NCBI GenBank assembly: GCA_006969905.1 | Contig: CP030887.1 | Location: 1,364,001 to 1,428,000 of the forward strand | Direction: 5' to 3' | Source of the DNA: Balneolaceae bacterium | Lineage (GTDB): Bacteria > Bacteroidota > Rhodothermia > Balneolales > Balneolaceae | DNA: 64,000 nt | Shown: piece by piece, positions 5,393-50,515 of the stretch | Numbering within the stretch: position 1 is the stretch's first letter | Layout: the number at the start of each line of letters is the position of its first letter | Program-made: the position numbers and the translations under genes | Notes under the pieces: generated by a model | What the model was told of the DNA's origin: nothing | Database searches by the model: none | What the model saw: the letters and a program-made list of their open reading frames with translations, nothing else

Positions 5393-5434
5393 TAATAATT
5401 ATGTCAGAAAAGCGGTTTTCTGACATAATTATTA
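5393..5434. promoter_or_regulatory. Perfect 19-bp inverted repeat between divergent genes
   Basis: TTAATAATTATGTCAGAAAA-like arms: 5393-5411 and 5416-5434 are exact reverse complements, with a four-base loop GCGG. It lies about 85 bases upstream of the pruA start and 165 bases upstream of the divergent + strand gene, in a 291-base gap with no other gene. A terminator makes no sense here because both neighbours are transcribed away from it. It may be an operator or a structured 5' leader. Confidence 0.55.
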
Positions 5435-40234: not shown

Positions 40235-41266
40235 TTAGTAGTTACTTTCGAGTAGGGGAATAATACTATGTTCCAATAAATCGAAAACCGGTTTTTTATA
40301 GGAACGGTTTTGGGAAGGGTTATCGGAAGAAGAAGTAAGAACAACAGTTGCTTCTAACTCGGGAATCATAAACAGGTATTGCCCTCCAAAACCCCAGGCA
40401 AAAAATACTTTGTAACCGGCAACTTCCCGGTTCCACCACATGTAGCCATACCCATAAGGATTATAATTGCTGTAGGTGTATGTTTTAAAAGAATCCCAAA
40501 TCCACTCTTTTGAAACAATTTGTTCCCCTTCGAATTGGCCTACATCCAAAATCATTTGCCCGATTTTCAATAGGTCTCCGGGCTTCATGGAAAGATTATT
40601 TCCCCCCATATAATAACCATTGGGGCCCCTGTCCCATCCACCAATTTGTATATCAAGAGGATCAAACAGATAGGTTTCAGCAAAAGCTTTGGTACTGGCT
40701 CCGGTTGCTTTAGTAAGTATGGCAGAAAGCAGGTGAGATATTCCGGTGCTGTATACCATCTTTCCACCAGGCTCCTCCACAAAGGGCTGATCAAGCTGAA
40801 ATTTTATCCAGTCTTTGCTGATTGCCCATTTTCCGTAATTGAATATGCTGGTAGACTCCAATCCCGCTTGCATAGATAGCAGATGACGGATAGTGAGTTG
40901 TTCTTTTGCAGAATCGGGGTTTTCTGCAAAGTATTCCGGGAAGTAATTAACAATGGGTTCTTCGATACTTTCTATAAAGCCCTTGTCTATCGCAATACCT
41001 ACCAATAAGGTAATGATACTTTTAGAAGCCGATTTGATATTGTATGGTTGATTAGCACGCCTTCCTTTATAGTATTGCTCACCTATGAGCCGGCCTTTTT
41101 GTTGCAGTAATAAACTTCTTACGGATGGGATATCATCCGCTTTATCAAATACGCTTTCAAGTTCATAGCTGGTATCGCGGGGCTGTGCAAGACTATTTGA
41201 AATGCTTATTGCTACAAGTATCGCGAAAAAAAGTAATCGAATAAGGCTTTGATGAATAGAGATCAA
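40235..41266 (-). CDS. Serine hydrolase of the beta-lactamase class C / PBP family
   Basis: A 343-residue exported protein with signal peptide (about 1-27). The beta-lactamase fold is shown by the SxxK motif Ser79-Ala-Ser-Lys82 (YNIKSASKSIITLLVG), the Tyr motif Tyr172-Ser-Thr (GKMVYSTGISHLLS) and a downstream GGQYLF/ WGFGGQ stretch in the KTG position. Family members are DD-peptidases, esterases or peptidases; true beta-lactamase activity is not implied. Its ATG overlaps the stop of the small upstream gene (ATGA), so the pair is translationally coupled. Confidence 0.87.
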   Translation of the reverse strand: MISIHQSLIRLLFFAILVAISISNSLAQPRDTSYELESVFDKADDIPSVRSLLLQQKGRLIGEQYYKGRRANQPYNIKSASKSIITLLVGIAIDKGFIESIEEPIVNYFPEYFAENPDSAKEQLTIRHLLSMQAGLESTSIFNYGKWAISKDWIKFQLDQPFVEEPGGKMVYSTGISHLLSAILTKATGASTKAFAETYLFDPLDIQIGGWDRGPNGYYMGGNNLSMKPGDLLKIGQMILDVGQFEGEQIVSKEWIWDSFKTYTYSNYNPYGYGYMWWNREVAGYKVFFAWGFGGQYLFMIPELEATVVLTSSSDNPSQNRSYKKPVFDLLEHSIIPLLESNY

Positions 41267-41520
41267 TCTTTGAACTTGAATGTAACTGGAATTTTATCCT
41301 CATAGGGAGCCCCTATATGATAAAGCTCCCATTCAGAATCATAATTAAGGATACGATCTCTAAGGATATTCACCAAATCTTCTGAGCTTCCGTTTTCTGA
41401 ATTCCAGTCAAACGTTTCCACACGGAACTTCATTTTACGCTCCTCTCCATTTACGTAAATATCAAGGTTGGCCGTTTTTTCGACATTTGGGATGGTAAAT
41501 TGAACTCTTACATTTTGCAT
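41263..41520 (-). CDS. Small hypothetical protein, coupled to the serine hydrolase
   Basis: An 85-residue protein, beta-rich by look (VRVQFTIPNV, LDIYVNGEERKMKFRVETFD, KIPVTFKF), with no signal peptide, membrane helix or cysteine. I do not recognise the family. The stop overlaps the ATG of the serine hydrolase and it follows the NTF2-like gene by 26 bases, so the three may be one operon. Codon use looks like its neighbours. Its length and the overlap support it being a real gene. Confidence 0.65.
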   Translation of the reverse strand: MQNVRVQFTIPNVEKTANLDIYVNGEERKMKFRVETFDWNSENGSSEDLVNILRDRILNYDSEWELYHIGAPYEDKIPVTFKFKD

Positions 41521-41546
41521 AACTATTGTTATATCCTGATTTTCGT

Positions 41547-41978
41547 TTAGTCTTTTTTAAATTCCCAAAACACATTAATAATTTTCCATTTCCCTTCTTC
41601 TTTCACTAAATGCATATACTCTGTCCATCTGGCGTTTGGGTATCCGGTTCTCAAACTTGCACTGGCCATTTTTCCAAACACAGTAATATTTTCTACAGCA
41701 TTATTTTGGTGCTTTACTTCAAATTTTGGTTTGGTTGACATAAGTTCTTTTAATTTCTTAGGGGGGAAATCCTCACTTAGCGTACCATCTGGATTTAGTC
41801 CTCTTTTAGCAAGCCTTGGGTGCAATGATACATTCATCGCATCATAATTGTTTTCAAAGAAATTTTCTATGTAGCTTAAAATAGCTTTCTCAATTGCAGC
41901 ATTTTCAGCTGTTTCTGATTGAGCATAAGAGTTAGTTGTAGAAATTAATACGATAATTAGGATAAATATTTTTCTCAT
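41547..41978 (-). CDS. Secreted NTF2-like (SnoaL/lumazine-binding-like) protein
   Basis: A 143-residue exported protein. After a signal peptide (about 1-20, ending SYAQS) comes one NTF2-like cone fold of the putative lumazine-binding type: AIEKAILSYIENFFENNYDA, LHPRLAKRGLN, FGKMASASLRTGYPNARWTE and a final EGKWKIINVFWEF. Members bind small ligands or act as immune-like or enzyme accessory proteins; no catalytic residues are clear. It appears to start the small operon with the 85-residue protein and the serine hydrolase. Confidence 0.8.
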   Translation of the reverse strand: MRKIFILIIVLISTTNSYAQSETAENAAIEKAILSYIENFFENNYDAMNVSLHPRLAKRGLNPDGTLSEDFPPKKLKELMSTKPKFEVKHQNNAVENITVFGKMASASLRTGYPNARWTEYMHLVKEEGKWKIINVFWEFKKD

Positions 41979-42169
41979 TTTTGCTACTTAATTAGTTAGC
42001 TGTACTAATTTGCATATAGCTTGAATTAGGTTAATGCTTTATTGTACACCAATAATCATACCAAATTCACCTGACCTTTAATTTCGCTTCATTTGAAGGT
42101 TTTTTGATCATGAAACTGTCCGCAAATAATACACAGGTGTTCATTTATGGACAATAAAGTATTGCAAGC

Positions 42170-44842
42170 TTACTCGTTTCTTAAGCTATATATGGGATTA
42201 ATAAGAGCCGCCTTTATTGATTTATAGCTCATGGTTAACCAGGCTACAGTAAGCGCAATTAGTCCAGATAATAGATATATAAGAAAATTTGTATCAGTTT
42301 GATAAGCAAAATTCTGCATCCAGCTTTTCATAAGATGCCAGGTGATCGGCCAGGCAATGAAATTGGCAATGGCAACCAGTAAAATGAATTTCTTTGAAAG
42401 TAAAAAAGCGATCTGCAGAGCTGTTGCACCCAAAACTTTCCGGATACCTATCTCTTTAGTACGCTGAAGTATAAAGTGACTGATAAGGCCATATAACCCA
42501 AGGCAGGCTATGAGAATAGTTAGGACTGTAAAGGCCGTAACCAACTTAAAGAATCTTTGATCAGCCTGGTACATTTCATCCAGATGCTCATCTAAAAAAC
42601 GGAAGTGGAAAGGAAAGTCCGGAACAGCTTCTTCCCATGTTTGCTCAAGAGAAGTGAGCATATCACTGAAAGTTCCTGCACGAACTCTTACAAATAAATT
42701 TTCCATGTTAGTAGGAGGGATAAACATAACCAAAGGCTGTATTTCTCTGTGTAGTGAAGCAAAGTTGAAGTTCTTAGTTACACCAATAACTTGCCCTTCA
42801 GTAATTTGATCAACCTGTATATGTTTTCCGAGTGGGTTTTCCCAACCAAATATTTTAGCAGCAGCTTCATTCAAAACTATTCCACTTACAGAATCTGTTG
42901 AATAGGATTCATCAAATCCTCGACCCTGAATGAATTCAATACCCATTGTTTCAAAAAAGCCAAAATGAGCACCATAAATATTCATAGGATATCCTTCATT
43001 ATCTTCTGCATCCCGGGAAAAAATAGGTACGCTTCCATTATCACCATCCAATAATCCCCCACCCATTCCTGCACTTATCACATGAGGGTTCGATTCAATT
43101 TGTTGTCTGATTAAATCGTAACGGCGTGTAAGTTCTTGTCCATCCATATGGAGAACGATCAATTGGTCTTGTTCAAAACCTAAATTTCTTTCTTGAATGA
43201 ATTGAATCTGCTGGCGAATAATGAAACTACCAGCAATTAGAAGAATGGCAATCGTAAACTGGGCTACTACCAAGACCGTCCGAATATCAAACCGGGTTTT
43301 TTTATTAAAGAAATGTCCCTTAAGTACTTTTACTGGTTTAAATGCAGACATTACAAGAGCAGGATATAAACCTGAAATCATCCCAAGACCCAATCCAATT
43401 ACAAAGAATATTGGAATTATAAATTTGAAATCTTCCAAACGAACTATGAATTCCATTCCTAATAGTGATGAAACGAACTTTGAAAATGGAATGGAAAAAA
43501 TAATCGCGAGTAGTGCACTTAAAAGTGCTATTAGAATCGATTCTCCCAGAAACTGACGAATTAAGCCGGACCTTTGTGCACCCAATGTTTTGCGAACCCC
43601 AACTTCTTTTCCTCGTCGGATGGACTGTGCTGTACTAAGGTTCATAAAATTAAAACATGCGATTAGAAGTAAAAAAGCTGCTACAGCGGACATTGCCCAT
43701 ATATAACCACGGTTACCGGTCAATAAATGAGTACTTGCATTCCGTAAGTCAGAATTAAGGTAAACTTCCGAAAGCGGTTGAAGGTGAAGAATCCGGTTTT
43801 CACCAACATCTTCGCCCATATTAATAACTAAAAAGTCCTTAAACTTTGCCTGTAGTTCGTCAGGATTTGTTCCTTCTCGAAGACGCACATATGTGTAAAA
43901 TGAAACCCATCCCCAACTTTCAACAGTGACAGGATATCCAGGAGGAGGAGAGAAAGATTGAAAACTGATAATAAAATCAAAATGTAGATGAGTATTCTGT
44001 TTGATGGGAGCCAGGACTCCCGTTACAGTTAATGTGGTAATATTATCAAGGGTCAGCGATTTTCCGATAGGATTTTCTTCCCCAAAATATTTTTCAGCCA
44101 TTTCACTTGTAAGAATTACAGAATTTATATCGTTAAGGGCTGTAATAGCATTACCTTTTTCTAAAGGAAAGTTGAACATTTTAAGAAAGGAAGGGTCAGC
44201 ATAAGCGACCCCATATTCATAAAATTGTTGGTCCTGATGTTGAAGTATATTACTATCGACAAAACGAAAGCGTACTACTTCTTCAATTTCAGGATAGGTC
44301 TCAAGCAATGCAGGTCCCATTGGGGGAGAGGTTGTTGCAAAATGCCGTGCTCCGGGACGGTTTATTTCCTGAAATGTAAGCCGATAAATTTGGTCTGAAT
44401 TTTCATGAAATCGATCGAAAGTGAGTTCTTGCTTTACATAAGTAAAAATTACAATACAGCATATAAGGGCTGTGGTTAGACCAAAAATGTTTATGAAAGT
44501 ATTCCCACGGTCGTGGTTTAAATTCCGAAGTCCGATTTTTATATAGTTGGGCAATAATATGGGTATCCACTTCTTGTGTTGCCATAGCGGAGTTGGCCTA
44601 TTTTTCTTAGTCCTTGTTTTATAAAACTCAGATCCAACCGATTCCAGCTCGCCCATTTCTTCTATAGCTTTTAAAAAAGCTTCTTCGTTTGACAGACCAT
44701 CTTCTTTTAGGTGTTCAATTTCATCTAATAAATGTGATTCCAACTCCTCAATATCTCCATCCTCATAGGCTGGGTTTTTTCGAAGCTTGCGTTTCCATTC
44801 CTTAATTGTTTTTTCTAAATCAAACATATACTTGTTTTCCAT
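42170..44842 (-). CDS. FtsX/MacB-type ABC permease with permease prefix domain (array member 1)
   Basis: An 890-residue permease, the last gene of the array. The first about 75 residues are a cytoplasmic prefix domain (EKTIKEWKRKLRKNPAYEDG, IEELESHLLDEIEHLKEDGL). Then come one membrane helix, a periplasmic MacB-like domain (TFDRFHENSDQIYRL), three helices with the cytoplasmic turn KEVGVRKTLGA, a further helix, a second periplasmic domain, and three final helices with KEIGIRKVLGA, ending SLRNE. That is two FtsX units in one chain, about eight helices, so a single chain plus an ATPase dimer could make a transporter of the MacB mechanotransmission kind (inference). The ATG overlaps the previous stop as TAATG; the Met five codons on matches the paralogs' start. 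Confidence 0.9.
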   Translation of the reverse strand: MENKYMFDLEKTIKEWKRKLRKNPAYEDGDIEELESHLLDEIEHLKEDGLSNEEAFLKAIEEMGELESVGSEFYKTRTKKNRPTPLWQHKKWIPILLPNYIKIGLRNLNHDRGNTFINIFGLTTALICCIVIFTYVKQELTFDRFHENSDQIYRLTFQEINRPGARHFATTSPPMGPALLETYPEIEEVVRFRFVDSNILQHQDQQFYEYGVAYADPSFLKMFNFPLEKGNAITALNDINSVILTSEMAEKYFGEENPIGKSLTLDNITTLTVTGVLAPIKQNTHLHFDFIISFQSFSPPPGYPVTVESWGWVSFYTYVRLREGTNPDELQAKFKDFLVINMGEDVGENRILHLQPLSEVYLNSDLRNASTHLLTGNRGYIWAMSAVAAFLLLIACFNFMNLSTAQSIRRGKEVGVRKTLGAQRSGLIRQFLGESILIALLSALLAIIFSIPFSKFVSSLLGMEFIVRLEDFKFIIPIFFVIGLGLGMISGLYPALVMSAFKPVKVLKGHFFNKKTRFDIRTVLVVAQFTIAILLIAGSFIIRQQIQFIQERNLGFEQDQLIVLHMDGQELTRRYDLIRQQIESNPHVISAGMGGGLLDGDNGSVPIFSRDAEDNEGYPMNIYGAHFGFFETMGIEFIQGRGFDESYSTDSVSGIVLNEAAAKIFGWENPLGKHIQVDQITEGQVIGVTKNFNFASLHREIQPLVMFIPPTNMENLFVRVRAGTFSDMLTSLEQTWEEAVPDFPFHFRFLDEHLDEMYQADQRFFKLVTAFTVLTILIACLGLYGLISHFILQRTKEIGIRKVLGATALQIAFLLSKKFILLVAIANFIAWPITWHLMKSWMQNFAYQTDTNFLIYLLSGLIALTVAWLTMSYKSIKAALINPIYSLRNE

Positions 44843-47487
44843 TACTCATCCTTCAAACTATCTACTGGGTTCATCCAGGCTACTTTCAAAGTTTGATAAC
44901 TAACAGTTACAATTGCTAAGAGCACAACTACCAGTCCCGCAATCAAATAGTTGCCCATACTATTACTGATTCTATACGCATAGTTTTGAAGCCATTCTTC
45001 AGCCAGAAAGTATGTAACCGGTGCTGCAATGAAGAAAGAAATCACCACTACAATCAGAATCTCTTTATTGAAAGATATCAGGAGGTCTGATAATGAAGCA
45101 CCAAGAATCTTTCGAATTCCCATTTCTTTGCTTCGTTTTTCTGCATTAAAAGTAGCCAGGCCAAACAGCCCCAGGCAAGCAATAACAATGGCTATGATAG
45201 AAAATGCGAAGAATAATTTTCTTTGACGGGTATCACTTTCATATAGTTGAGCGAATTGCTCATTCACAAAACGATATTCGATCGGATAGAGCGGAGAGAA
45301 ATTGTTCCAGACCTCAGTAATTTGAGGCAGTAAACCAGAAATATTCTCGGCATTCACCTTAACTACTAAGTTTCTATAGTCTTCCGCCATTGAAACGGCT
45401 AAAGGGCTTATCTGATGATGAAGTGAAGTAAAATGGAAATCATCAACTACACCTATTACAAATCTAGGATGTTCATCAGTAAATACATTTCGAATTTCCT
45501 TGCCAATAGCTTCTTCATTGGTCCATCCTAGAAATTCAGCTGCCTTTTCATTTATAACAATAGCAGAAGTAGAGTCGGTAGAATAAGCCCTGTCAAAATC
45601 TCTTCCGGTTACCATCTGTAAATCAAAAACTTCAGAAAAACTGTCATCGATAAATAGGGTGCTCATCGTTAAAGGATCTTCATACCCTTCTACATCAAAC
45701 GAATAATTATCAAAAAAACCACCCGGCGAACCTGACATTACACTTGCTTCCTCAATACCGGGAATCGTTTTCAATTGATCGAGCATTTGCAGAATATTAC
45801 TCTGGGCCGTAGAATTATTCAGGGAAATATCAAGCAGTTGTTCCGGTTGAAAACCCAACGATTTATTGGAGATATAGTCCAGTTGTTTGTTAACTATTGA
45901 AACCCCAATAATCAGCAAGCTCGATATTGCGAATTGAAAGATAATCAGTCCTTTTCGTGTTACTACCTGAGAAGTACCAAAACTGATTTTTTCTTTCAAC
46001 GCTTTTATTGGTTTAAAGGAAGAAAGAAATAGGGCAGGATATACTCCGGCCAAAAAGCCGGTTAGCACCAGAATTGAGAACGTCATCAGGAGAATCTCAG
46101 GAGAGAACTGGTTAATTGAGATTGAAGTGCCAATCATCTGCTCAAACGGGGGAAGTAAAAAGTACACGAGGATAAAAGAGATAAATCCCGCGAAAAAGGC
46201 CATTACAAAAGCTTCCGACATAAACTGAGTGAACAGGATTAGTCGCTGAGCACCTAGTGTTTTTCTAATTCCAACCTCCTTGGCGCGACTAACAGATCGG
46301 GCGGTTGCAAGATTTATGAAATTAACTCCGGCTACTACAATAATAAGAATGGCGATAATTCCGAAAATATAAATTACCGTTTTATCGCCATGTTCAACCT
46401 GCCAGTCGAAGGCCAGGTGATTGGAAAAGTAGACTTCTTCGAGTGGCATAAGGCTCAGGTCAATGCGACGATTCATTTCGGCCATATTTTCGCCGAAATA
46501 TTTATCCATAAAAGCCGGTAGCTGAGGCTCGATATCGGAAAGCTGAACTCCGTCGCTTAAGAGCGCATAAGTATGTACCTGATTCCAGCCCCACTGATTA
46601 TAGAAATTGTAATCACTAAAGGTGATGATGCTTACAGCCAGGTCAAAATTTACGTGACTTTTAGCACCCTCAGGAAATTCAAAAACTCCGGTTACTTCGA
46701 AGCTATCTTCGCCATCAATAATTATATTTTTCCCAATGGGATTCTCATCCCCAAAGTATTTTTGAGCAGTTTCTTTTGATAAAACTACGGTGTAAGGTTC
46801 AACCAAAGCTGTTTCCGGATTGCCTGCAATAAACAGATAAGTGAATACCTGAAAGAAATTTTTGTCAGCCATGTATAAGCGCGACTCCATGAAATTCTGG
46901 TCGTCTATACTCACCACGCCATCTCCGGGTCCCAGTGTAGCAGCCATTTCAATCATTTCAGGGAACTCGCTTTCCAAACCCGATTTAAAAGGAGCAGAAG
47001 TAATACCTACCAACTCAGTTCCTTCAGGTCGTTCCATCTGGCGATTAACTTTATAAATACGATTTGCCTTTTCATGAAATGTATCATAACTAAGCTCATT
47101 TTGAATAAACAGGTAGATAAAAATGGCGCTTGTGATTCCGATAACTAACCCTGTTGTATTTAGAATGCTATAAAGCTTGTTACGAACCAGGTTTCTTTGA
47201 GCGATTTTTACAAAACTGCCTAAGATGCCCCAGTTCATAGCAGCAGAGGTGTCCAGGTAAGACTTGGTGGTTGTGGTTTTGTATAATTCAGTTCCCAGTT
47301 CATTCACATCACCAATTTCATTAGCTGCGATATCAAAGGCTTGCTGCGCAGTGTAAGATTCAGCTTCAAGCGCTTCGATTCTATCCCTTAAATGTGATTC
47401 CAACTCCTCAATATCTCCATCTTCGTACCCCGAATTTTTTCGAAGTCTACGTTTCCATTCTTTGATTGCTTTTTCTAATTCAAACAT
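44842..47487 (-). CDS. FtsX/MacB-type ABC permease with permease prefix domain (array member 2)
   Basis: An 881-residue paralog with the same order: prefix domain (ELEKAIKEWKRRLRKN, IEELESHLRDRIEALEAESY) followed by two MacB/FtsX units. The half-domain turns read KEVGIRKTLGA and KEMGIRKILGA, and the end is SLKDE. The periplasmic loop begins SYDTFHEKANRIYKVNR. Its prefix is far more similar to its neighbours than its body is. It is joined to both neighbours by one-base stop/start overlaps (TAATG at 47487 and at 44842), so translation is coupled. Substrate unknown; related permeases move peptides, lipopeptides or antimicrobials. Confidence 0.9.
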   Translation of the reverse strand: MFELEKAIKEWKRRLRKNSGYEDGDIEELESHLRDRIEALEAESYTAQQAFDIAANEIGDVNELGTELYKTTTTKSYLDTSAAMNWGILGSFVKIAQRNLVRNKLYSILNTTGLVIGITSAIFIYLFIQNELSYDTFHEKANRIYKVNRQMERPEGTELVGITSAPFKSGLESEFPEMIEMAATLGPGDGVVSIDDQNFMESRLYMADKNFFQVFTYLFIAGNPETALVEPYTVVLSKETAQKYFGDENPIGKNIIIDGEDSFEVTGVFEFPEGAKSHVNFDLAVSIITFSDYNFYNQWGWNQVHTYALLSDGVQLSDIEPQLPAFMDKYFGENMAEMNRRIDLSLMPLEEVYFSNHLAFDWQVEHGDKTVIYIFGIIAILIIVVAGVNFINLATARSVSRAKEVGIRKTLGAQRLILFTQFMSEAFVMAFFAGFISFILVYFLLPPFEQMIGTSISINQFSPEILLMTFSILVLTGFLAGVYPALFLSSFKPIKALKEKISFGTSQVVTRKGLIIFQFAISSLLIIGVSIVNKQLDYISNKSLGFQPEQLLDISLNNSTAQSNILQMLDQLKTIPGIEEASVMSGSPGGFFDNYSFDVEGYEDPLTMSTLFIDDSFSEVFDLQMVTGRDFDRAYSTDSTSAIVINEKAAEFLGWTNEEAIGKEIRNVFTDEHPRFVIGVVDDFHFTSLHHQISPLAVSMAEDYRNLVVKVNAENISGLLPQITEVWNNFSPLYPIEYRFVNEQFAQLYESDTRQRKLFFAFSIIAIVIACLGLFGLATFNAEKRSKEMGIRKILGASLSDLLISFNKEILIVVVISFFIAAPVTYFLAEEWLQNYAYRISNSMGNYLIAGLVVVLLAIVTVSYQTLKVAWMNPVDSLKDE

Positions 47488-50099
47488 TATTCACTCTTTA
47501 AACTTTTTACCGGATTCATATAAGCTGCACGAATAGCCTGACCGCTTACGGTTATTAGCGCAATAGTAAAGGCGATTAATCCTGTGATGAGAAAAACTTC
47601 CCAACTGACTTCAGTTTTATACGCAAAGCTTTCAAGCCATTGATTCATGATAAACCAGGCAACCGGAATGGCTATCAAAAAGCCGAAGGCTACCAGTTTT
47701 AATAAATCGGTACTTACCAGCTGTACAATCTGGGTAGTTGTAGCTCCAAGTACTTTACGAATACCGATTTCTTTGGTGCGTTGTATAACCATAAAGGCAG
47801 CCAGACCAAATAAGCCGAGGCAACCAATAAAGATTGCAAGACCGGAAAACGATCCAAATACTTTGATCAACCTGTCTTCGGCTTCATACTGAGTTTTCAG
47901 GTCATCCGCCAGGAAAGAGTATTCGAGCGTTAATGAAGAAAACTGTTTCCAGCCGGCTTGTACTTCTTCGATAATTCTGGGAAGATCTGCTTCCGGGTTT
48001 ATGCGTAATGCCACATATCTTGGGCGTTGCCTTGGCCCGAAAAGCGCAAGAGGATATACCTCTGCATGTAGTGACCTGTAATTGAAATCCCGAAGAACCC
48101 CTATAATATCATATTCGGTTGTACCCCTTAAAATCTTATGGTTAACAGCCTCATCCGGCGACCAACCGAAATCTTTCACAGCAGCTTCATTTAACATGAC
48201 TGCAAAAGAATCACTTCTGAAAGAACGTGAAAAACTACGGCCAGCTATAACTTCTAAATCCAATGTTTCTACATAATCAAAATTCACGAACGAATAATCC
48301 AGGTTATGGGCATCTGCATCAGGAGTGTCGGGTTGCCACATGGAATTAATAAAGAAGGTGCCTGGTACAGAGAAACCTGATGTAACATTTTCAACCCCGG
48401 AGATTTTTGATAACTCGTTAATAAATGGCGTATGGTTTTGTCCCAGAAAATTAGCCTGTTTTATAAGTAGTACATCATTAGGGTTGAACCCTAAGCCGGA
48501 CCTTTTCATGAATTGAATTTGTTTGTGGATTATGCCTGTTCCAGCAAGCAGGGTGATAGAAATGGCGAATTGAAATACCACCAGGCTTTTTCGCAGAAAG
48601 CTATTTCCCTCAGATCTGAATACACTTTTTAGTACTTGCGATGGCTGAAAACGACTAAGAATAAATGCCGGATATCCACCTGCAAGAAGCCCTGTGAGTA
48701 TGGTTATTGAAAGAAGTAGTACTGAATTTTTCAAAGTTAAAAAATCAGTAAATGCTATTGAAGTACCGGAGATCGCATTAAGAAAAGGGAGGGCAATGTA
48801 GTTTAATATTATTGCCAAAGCAGAGGCGAGGAAAGCCATTAATAAAGATTCTCCAAGAAACTGAAATGCAATCTGGGTTCGGTTTCCTCCTAATGTTTTT
48901 CTCATTCCAACTTCTCGTGCCCGTTCCATGGAACGTGCTGTAGCCAGGTTCATGAAATTGATACAAGCCAAAATTACAATGAAAACGGCCAGGGCTATGA
49001 ATAGGTACAGGTACTGAATATTACCCTCTGAGCCAATATCTACAGAAACACCTTGACCTAAGTAGATACCGGTTAAGGGTTGAAGGTGTGGAATAAAGTC
49101 ATTGCCTGCTAATTGGTTACCTGATCCCGATTGTGACAGGATTAGCTCTCCTATTTCTTTGATAACATTATTTAAGGAATATTCCGGTGTTAGTAAGAGA
49201 TAAGTTTGAAAATTATTTCGTCCCCAATTAAGTTCACGGGTATTCATGGAGGCTATAAAGTCAAAATCAAGATGAGAATTAGAAGGAGGGTCTGTAAGTA
49301 CTCCTGTTATTTCCATTTCCCGATTTCCAACCAATAAGCTTTTGCCTATTGGGTTTTCTTCCCCAAAATATTTGGGAACCATCCTTTGAGTAATCATTAC
49401 TGTATTTGGACGGTCTAAATGGGAGGTTCCTTCAAGTAAATCAAATGAAAATATTTCGAAGAAACCATCATCAGCAATCAAAAACGAAGGTTCTACAAAT
49501 TTTTCTAAGCCATATCCAACTACCGGGCTATCCATTTGTATTCTTACAGCTCTTTCAACTGACGCAAGATTTTCCATTACTGCAGGTGCAAGCGCAGAAG
49601 GAGTTGAGGAAATAGTTGTTTGCAAGTCCGGAATGTCAAATTCGCGAAGTACACGGTAGCTGCGGTCAGCATTCTCATGAAAAGTATCATAAGACCACTC
49701 ATGCTGAACGTATAGTGCGATAAGAATACATGCCGCCAGGCCTATAGATAATCCAATAATATTAATAACAGTGTAACCTTTTCTTAAGATCAGGTTCCGC
49801 CATGCTATTTTAAAATAGTTCGGAAGCAGTGATGAAATCCCAGAGGATTCTTTCCAATGAGTTGAGGGGCGATTTCCTTTAATCCGGGTTTTACTTAACT
49901 CGGTTCCTATACGGTTAATATCACCTACTTCATTAGCAGCGATATCAAATGCTTGTTGCTCAGTATAAGATTCAGCTTCAAGCGTTTCGATTCTATCCCT
50001 TAAGTGTGATTCCAATTCTTCAATATCCCCATCCTCATAGGCTGGGTTTTTTCGAAGCTTCCTTTTCCATTCTTTAATTGCTTTTTCTAAATCAAACAT
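47487..50099 (-). CDS. FtsX/MacB-type ABC permease with permease prefix domain (array member 3)
   Basis: An 870-residue paralog, the first permease after padR. The prefix (DLEKAIKEWKRKLRKNPAYE and IEELESHLRDRIETLEAESY) is nearly identical to that of member 2. Turns read REVGMRKTLGG and KEIGIRKVLGA; the end is SLKSE. It starts 12 bases after the padR stop with AAAGGA in between, so PadR and these three permeases form one transcription unit. Permease prefix domains recur in proteins encoded next to PadR regulators, which matches here. No ATPase gene lies between padR and the end of this unit. Confidence 0.9.
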   Translation of the reverse strand: MFDLEKAIKEWKRKLRKNPAYEDGDIEELESHLRDRIETLEAESYTEQQAFDIAANEVGDINRIGTELSKTRIKGNRPSTHWKESSGISSLLPNYFKIAWRNLILRKGYTVINIIGLSIGLAACILIALYVQHEWSYDTFHENADRSYRVLREFDIPDLQTTISSTPSALAPAVMENLASVERAVRIQMDSPVVGYGLEKFVEPSFLIADDGFFEIFSFDLLEGTSHLDRPNTVMITQRMVPKYFGEENPIGKSLLVGNREMEITGVLTDPPSNSHLDFDFIASMNTRELNWGRNNFQTYLLLTPEYSLNNVIKEIGELILSQSGSGNQLAGNDFIPHLQPLTGIYLGQGVSVDIGSEGNIQYLYLFIALAVFIVILACINFMNLATARSMERAREVGMRKTLGGNRTQIAFQFLGESLLMAFLASALAIILNYIALPFLNAISGTSIAFTDFLTLKNSVLLLSITILTGLLAGGYPAFILSRFQPSQVLKSVFRSEGNSFLRKSLVVFQFAISITLLAGTGIIHKQIQFMKRSGLGFNPNDVLLIKQANFLGQNHTPFINELSKISGVENVTSGFSVPGTFFINSMWQPDTPDADAHNLDYSFVNFDYVETLDLEVIAGRSFSRSFRSDSFAVMLNEAAVKDFGWSPDEAVNHKILRGTTEYDIIGVLRDFNYRSLHAEVYPLALFGPRQRPRYVALRINPEADLPRIIEEVQAGWKQFSSLTLEYSFLADDLKTQYEAEDRLIKVFGSFSGLAIFIGCLGLFGLAAFMVIQRTKEIGIRKVLGATTTQIVQLVSTDLLKLVAFGFLIAIPVAWFIMNQWLESFAYKTEVSWEVFLITGLIAFTIALITVSGQAIRAAYMNPVKSLKSE

Positions 50100-50111
50100 A
50101 AAATCTGTCCT

Positions 50112-50456
50112 TTACTCCATAGCCCATTGCGGAGTAGGCCCCCATATTTTTGCAAATACTTCGTGGATGCTCAGCCACTGTGCTTTAGCCGCTTGAAGCT
50201 CTCCCAGGCCTGTTTCGGTAATGGAGTAATACTTTCTCTTTCTTCCTTCTTCAGAAACCACCCACTTAGATTGAATACAGCCATCTTTTTGGAGCTTATG
50301 AAGTACGGGATAGAGCATTCCGTCCGACCACTCGAGAGTTCCACCCGAAAGGTGCTTTACATCCTGGATAATTTGGTAACCATAACTTTCACCACGCTTG
50401 AGGATTGTTAAAAGAAGCGGACGTGTAGAGGCCGCCATAAGTTCTTTTGAAAGCAT
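50112..50456 (-). CDS. PadR-family transcriptional repressor
   Basis: A 114-residue winged-helix regulator: SKELMAASTRPLLLTILKRG, the wing and recognition area GGTLEWSDGMLYPVLHKLQK, and KRKYYSITETGLGEL, followed by a short C-terminal helix for dimerisation. PadR proteins sense small ligands, often antibiotics or phenolics, or envelope stress signals, and release their operator. The frame opens at 50495, but that ATG lies inside the 19-bp palindrome and promoter; the ATG at 50456 gives the normal PadR start and sits about 25-30 bases past the predicted -10 box, so it was chosen. It lies between the single ATPase gene and three prefix-type permeases. Confidence 0.92.
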   Translation of the reverse strand: MLSKELMAASTRPLLLTILKRGESYGYQIIQDVKHLSGGTLEWSDGMLYPVLHKLQKDGCIQSKWVVSEEGRKRKYYSITETGLGELQAAKAQWLSIHEVFAKIWGPTPQWAME

Positions 50457-50463
50457 AATAAGA

Positions 50464-50509
50464 TACATTGAAGTTCTATGTATTGCATTATACATAGAAC
50501 TTCAATGTA
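50464..50509. promoter_or_regulatory. Perfect 19-bp palindrome, probable PadR operator
   Basis: TACATTGAAGTTCTATGTA (50464-50482) and its exact reverse complement (50491-50509) flank an eight-base centre. The inner part reads ATGTA-N8-TACAT, the ATGT-N8-ACAT form reported for PadR-family operators. It lies just upstream of the chosen padR start and overlaps the promoter below, so PadR binding should block transcription (autorepression). Confidence 0.85.
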
Positions 50510-50515
50510 ATCCAA
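50487..50515 (-). promoter_or_regulatory. Promoter of the padR-permease unit
   Basis: On the minus strand, TATAAT (50492-50487) sits in the centre of the palindrome, with TTGGAT (50515-50510) 17 bases upstream. The -10 box is perfect; the -35 box is a partial match. This would start transcription about 25 bases before the padR ATG. Confidence 0.6.

Follow-up and report, generated by a model that had tools for sequence, protein, structure and literature searches.

Autoregulation through two operator sites by an LmrR-like PadR protein is already known from cdPadR1 of Clostridioides difficile R20291, a PadR-s2 protein whose own promoter holds a pair of inverted-repeat sites: the first lies over the -35/-10 region, the second between that site and the gene (PMC5050560). 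In Lactococcus lactis, LmrR acts as a repressor both of its own gene and of an ABC transporter (PMC5428041; PDB 3f8b). Strong autorepression, roughly 150-450 fold, is also known for LltR, LstR, and LftR of Listeria, as given in the available excerpt of PMC6624303. In the available excerpt of PMC11237479, HAAS-PadR pairs are described as a padR gene followed by genes for membrane proteins with an N-terminal helical domain, including FtsX/MacB fusions.

We analyzed a padR gene and its surroundings in a 64-kb stretch of DNA (hereafter, the window; Table 1). The encoded protein scored 86 bits against PF03551 (cut-off 27, E 1.7e-24), which places it in the PadR family, and matched LmrR, its closest solved structure by sequence, over residues 3-102 (E ~5e-20). 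PadR-s2 proteins are recognized by a length of ~110 aa, a single C-terminal dimerization helix (here judged by sequence), the motif (E/D)G.LYP.L.(R/K)L, and a tryptophan in alpha4; the window PadR has 114 aa, the stretch DGMLYPVLHKL, and W94, which aligns with Trp96 of LmrR. The opening of its recognition helix, DGMLYP, is comparable to EGTLYP in PMC3506622. The best NCBIfam models for PadR and the permeases, TIGR03433 (padR_acidobact) and TIGR03434 (ADOP), scored below threshold, at 86 bits against a curated cut-off of 101.8 and at ~296-333 against 622, respectively.

A gap of 12 bp separates padR from the first of three permease genes, and all three products carry prefix domain 1. The segment from 41266 to 50515, which holds padR and the genes of the three prefix permeases as well as a 143-aa ORF, has a G+C content of 0.387 versus 0.40-0.41 around it. 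When the window was taken together with 73 relatives, the gene following padR encoded the prefix domain NF038403 in 71 of the 74 loci; in Planctomycetes, Verrucomicrobia, and Gemmatimonadota this neighbor was a short protein of ~230 aa, not a permease. The order of padR followed by membrane proteins with an N-terminal helical domain is shared with the HAAS-PadR pairs and the Listeria loci, as far as the excerpts of PMC11237479 and PMC6624303 describe them. The differences are that no operator is described in those excerpts and that the prefix domain here fits NF038403 but matches the Pfam HAAS model weakly (12/74 neighbors, best E 0.0036). A fold search with the prefix domain, the model of which was confident in the first 70 residues, returned no significant match to a solved structure.

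In six congeners, only a short stretch holding one small gene separates the upstream ABC ATPase gene from a serine hydrolase gene; in the window, the padR-permease block sits between the ABC ATPase and the serine hydrolase. A padR of this kind was absent from the seven congeners, and the nearest copy (93% identical) belongs to a different genus. Gain of the block as a cassette is probable, with loss elsewhere a possible alternative.

Table 1. Features of the padR-permease locus, in window coordinates
Feature	Position	Strand	Basis or remark
-35 box TTGGAT	50510-50515	-	read directly; 3/6 versus TTGACA
Operator site 1, TACATTGAAGTTCTATGTA, filling the 17-bp spacer	50491-50509	-	predicted site; 10/10 versus TACMT-N9-AKGTA
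-10 box TATAAT	50487-50492	-	read directly; first two bases common to site 1
Operator site 2, TACATAGAACTTCAATGTA, over the predicted transcription start	50464-50482	-	predicted site; 10/10 versus consensus
Perfect inverted repeat built of both sites	50464-50509	.	arms 20 bp, center 6 bp
padR, 114 aa, LmrR-like PadR, winged helix	50112-50456	-	PF03551, LmrR match
Codons for PadR D45 and G46, start of the recognition helix	50319-50324	-	top co-varying columns
MacB/FtsX-type permease 1, N-terminal prefix domain	47487-50099	-	NF038403 36 bits (cut-off 30); MacB_PCD, FtsX
Prefix-domain permease 2	44842-47487	-	NF038403 36 bits; one-base overlap with neighbors
Prefix-domain permease 3	42170-44842	-	NF038403 47.5 bits, ADOP-like

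Read on the minus strand from 50515 to 50454, the DNA in front of padR consists of TTGGAT, TACATTGAAGTTCTATGTA, TAATGCAA, TACATAGAACTTCAATGTA, TCTTATT, and the ATG. It contains a perfect inverted repeat with 20-bp arms (50464-50483 and 50490-50509), the longest in the window among perfect repeats with a loop of at most 20 bp and one for which ~3e-6 would be expected by chance. A preliminary description had given 19-bp arms and an 8-bp center, which is the same repeat, one pair shorter. It had also dismissed a longer padR frame from 50495, and we agree: that frame starts inside site 1 and lacks homologue support, and the conserved start is the ATG at 50456. Each arm is near-palindromic alone (TACAT-N9-ATGTA), and a one-arm query of the window matched both arms on both strands, with no further match in the window at up to three mismatches. 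The second-longest perfect inverted repeat of the window (5393-5434; 19-bp arms, 4-bp loop, TAATAATTATGTCAGAAAA...) lies in the gap of a divergent gene pair, 86 bp ahead of an aldehyde-dehydrogenase-like gene, and is perhaps another operator.

We compared this region with the DNA in front of 84 related padR genes. At least eight phyla are represented, with loci in Balneolaceae, Cytophagales, Aminicenantes, Planctomycetes, Verrucomicrobia, Gemmatimonadota, Latescibacterota, Acidobacteria, and Poribacteria (80 of 234 candidates were retained in the homologue collection). A perfect TACMT-N9-AKGTA was found upstream in 60/84 loci, versus ~0.05-0.1 loci in shuffles, and a match of at least 9/10 in 75/84, versus 2.2. 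Among unit lengths of 16-22 bp, all except 19 were at or near chance in these 84 loci; beyond this range, lengths 15 and 23 stood out, as register shifts of the same unit. Half-site positions outside the scoring were conserved too (position 6 was W in 202/212 and position 7 was R in 208/212), giving a full consensus of TACMTWR-N5-YWAKGTA, a 19-bp quasi-palindrome that occurs twice in the window with a start-to-start distance of 27 bp. Two sites per promoter were usual, spaced by 22 bp in most Aminicenantes and Planctomycetes and by 24-35 bp in Balneolaceae, and Verrucomicrobia had a single arm-type site without a second arm. The conservation of the 19-bp unit, the variable spacing, and the single-site Verrucomicrobia suggest that the 19-bp arm is the operator, and the single-site promoters and the range of spacings from 22 to 35 bp suggest that the arms act separately. 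By this comparison, the long inverted repeat is best described as two predicted operators facing each other. The spacings, which scatter over 22-28 and 32-35 bp, do not support a strict helical phasing of the sites.

The preliminary description had instead proposed one 46-bp dyad centered on TATAAT, with the operator form ATGT-N8-ACAT. The dyad in fact reads ATGT-N10-ACAT, without the N8 form; it is centered near the -10 box and has the half-site spacing reported for LmrR at lmrCD (PMC5428041), which favors a single LmrR/PadR-type operator with TATAAT at its center. However, of the 84 related promoters, none has ATGT-N8-ACAT, the canonical PadR operator, and 2 have ATGT-N10-ACAT, and what is conserved is the 19-bp unit, in one or two copies per promoter, while the distance between arms changes. 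We consider a single long dyad quite improbable.

Among the relatives examined, L061, L079, L104, L119, and L124 had no site within 150 bp upstream, and Balneolaceae group C (L039/L042) carried a variant of 18 bp, at odds with the 19-bp form. At position 1500 of L150, twin TACCTCG-type sites 32 bp apart precede a 398-aa ORF with no padR directly behind, and the padR homologue L169 is ~1 kb away on the same contig; L150 may represent a second arrangement or a second target. The idea that the window's genome holds a wider regulon was also rejected: it contains 18 copies of TACMT-N9-AKGTA, versus 27 of a backwards control. The genome scan for further copies of the operator returned no full-consensus match in 3.49 Mb beyond the padR pair. 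The operator was likewise missing at 17 distant PadR loci, five of them in the window's own genome. At the distant PadR genes L002-L005, L031, L034, L035, L044, L045, and L047-L051, from which the operator is absent, the next gene carries a diverged prefix-like domain, and part of this set has other inverted repeats upstream; these genes may use a different site.

Turning to the promoter, TTGGAT (50515-50510) and TATAAT (50492-50487) on the minus strand are separated by exactly 17 bp, as the preliminary description had it. As a candidate sigma-70-type promoter, the pair matches at 6/6 positions in the -10 box and at 3/6 in the -35 box, though the lineage's own promoter consensus may differ, and the weak -35 box explains why a promoter scan did not list this promoter. 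At the -35 place, the four closest relatives carry TTGACT or TTGAAT, followed after 17 bp by TATTCT or TATAAT; because its position is conserved in relatives, we take TTGGAT to be the counterpart of a real -35 box. Over the 75 site-bearing loci, TTGACA (at least 5/6) directly abutted the upstream site in 28 and was absent at neighboring upstream offsets, and a -10 box (at least 5/6) was found at the 17-bp spacing offset in 28. From the position of the -10 box, we infer that transcription starts at site 2. The earlier idea of a repressor lying over the -10 box was narrowed: a protein on site 1 would fill the spacer and reach no further than the second base of the box, while one on site 2 would cover the start region.

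Other promoter types accompany the same site. In Verrucomicrobia and similar loci (L083, L087, L095, L100, L101, L106, L107, L109, and L116), a single site lies within TTGACA-17-TATAAN. The -10 box of the single-site Verrucomicrobia ends about six bases 5' of the ATG, which suggests that their padR transcripts are leaderless. At nine Aminicenantes loci, a sigma-54-like TGGCAY-N5-TTGC precedes the site (0 in shuffles), 16 bp upstream of it in eight of the nine, and sigma-54 was encoded in 6/6 tested genomes among these loci. The element stands 39-56 bp before padR (L056, L062, L064, L066, L077, L091, L094, L097, and L131). These sigma-54-like versions are unusual, since self-repression at an activator-dependent promoter implies that two separate inputs are at work. 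In Cytophagales, an ECF-like GNAAC-N15-17-CGT was seen before the site, a pattern that was picked after inspection and serves as a lead only.

Genes on the same strand lie upstream, and transcription of the ABC operon there may continue into padR; the repeat might then act as RNA, with a 20-bp hairpin terminating the transcript or hiding the padR start. If transcribed through, the repeat would fold at -28.7 kcal/mol (z -8.1), and it appeared terminator-like in the promoter/terminator scan. However, the arms pair perfectly only here; in close relatives they are mismatched and the fold has half the stability (-14 to -15 kcal/mol), and on this basis we rejected the hairpin as a conserved feature or main function. 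Many relatives have one site only, the stem has just 5 G-C pairs with a poor T tract, and RNA that begins at the promoter itself has a single arm and stays unfolded. The hairpin also leaves the TTGACA/TATAAT register unexplained, as well as the co-variation with PadR described below. We consider it improbable as the explanation of the repeat, but it could act alongside the operators. A repressor that blocks the promoter would stop read-through only as a roadblock.

To relate the sites to their putative reader, we ranked the columns of PadR against half-site bases. In the first set, residue 45 (D/E) ranked first of all columns for base 4 (A/C; z 22.6), and residue 46 (G/A) ranked first for base 7 (G/A; z 15.0). 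Independent contrasts, on a tree built without columns 45 and 46, again ranked residues 45 and 46 first in 282 tests (uncorrected P 0.0011 and 3.3e-5, respectively); after correction for the 282 tests, the contrast for residue 46 survived but that for residue 45 did not. In a second set of 61 further homologues of the same class, an acidic residue 45 was accompanied by a TACMT-type site in 23/27 loci, versus 3/34 for non-acidic residues (Fisher P ~1e-9, with relatedness ignored). The finer rule that D or E decides A or C at base 4 was strong in the first set and had the same direction in the 61 new loci, where it was not significant (P 0.13). Proteins with Thr45 had G at base 4 in 11/12 half-sites. 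The Thr45 homologues L182, L197, L200, L201, L204, and L207, which have TATGT or TACGT half-sites, apparently form a different specificity class, judging from these sequences.

Binding of the window PadR to these sites is a prediction, and the genome encodes further PadR proteins, so the sites might be read by another regulator encoded elsewhere. The site, however, accompanies this PadR subfamily across phyla and was not found at other PadR loci, and co-variation links its bases to the recognition helix of PadR; we regard a reader from elsewhere as very improbable.

The occurrence of the site before related padR genes in many phyla indicates that the arrangement is real, conserved, and known in kind. 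By position and conservation, the sites overlap the regulator's own core promoter, and the comparison supports the earlier proposal that padR and the three prefix-domain permeases share an autoregulatory PadR promoter in which operator sequence alternates with the -35 and -10 boxes. We conclude that two-site autorepression of these four genes by PadR is very probable. A PadR dimer would sit on each of the two 19-bp operators: at site 1, it would occupy the -35/-10 spacer and touch the -10 box, and at site 2, it would lie over the predicted start and the greater part of the short leader. Filled operators would exclude RNA polymerase and silence padR and the three permeases, giving negative feedback.

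Some PadR-related proteins activate transcription, AphA being an example, and AphA was among the structural matches of the window PadR. Activation of the operon from these sites nevertheless appears highly unlikely to us, given that they lie on the spacer, the -10 box, and the start region, positions that would obstruct polymerase, and that characterized LmrR-like relatives repress (PMC5428041, and PMC6624303 in the available excerpt). Under autorepression, release of PadR from the DNA would lift the block. The trigger would be either a ligand that occupies the pocket at the conserved Trp94 or contact of PadR with the permease prefix domains, the latter as is proposed for HAAS-PadR pairs in the available excerpt of PMC11237479.

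The arrangement is close to that of cdPadR1, the nearest parallel for two-site autorepression. Both are LmrR-like PadR-s2 proteins with two sites in their own promoter, and the cdPadR1 motif TACT-N11/12-AGTA has the same TAC...GTA polarity, its N11 form also being 19 bp long. The cdPadR1 motif differs in having T as its fourth base and requiring an AT-rich core, whereas the sites here read TAC[AC]T and their core is not AT-only; in addition, the C. difficile genome has ~200 further motif matches, and here there is no other full match. LmrR differs in its operator, ATGT-Nn-ACAT with a spacing of 10 at lmrCD (PMC5428041), and in its target, the exporter LmrCD rather than prefix-domain permeases.

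We found no description of the operator or its spread in the literature searched; as far as these searches reach, the operator, its distribution, and its use on sigma-54-like promoters are new. One broader reading, to which we give slightly less than an even chance, is that of a portable cassette in which the operator, its PadR, and a prefix-domain membrane protein would form one unit across many phyla. In such a cassette, the 19-bp site would stay constant while promoters are exchanged (sigma-70 type, sigma-54-like, and ECF-like) and the membrane output varies between an ABC-type permease and a short membrane protein. Two recognition-helix residues would set half-site bases 4 and 7, so that operators could be read from the protein sequence. 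For the window, the finding would mean an operon under local control. For the large and almost unstudied set of PadR proteins that are paired with prefix-domain membrane proteins, it would provide a defined operator and make their targets predictable from sequence.
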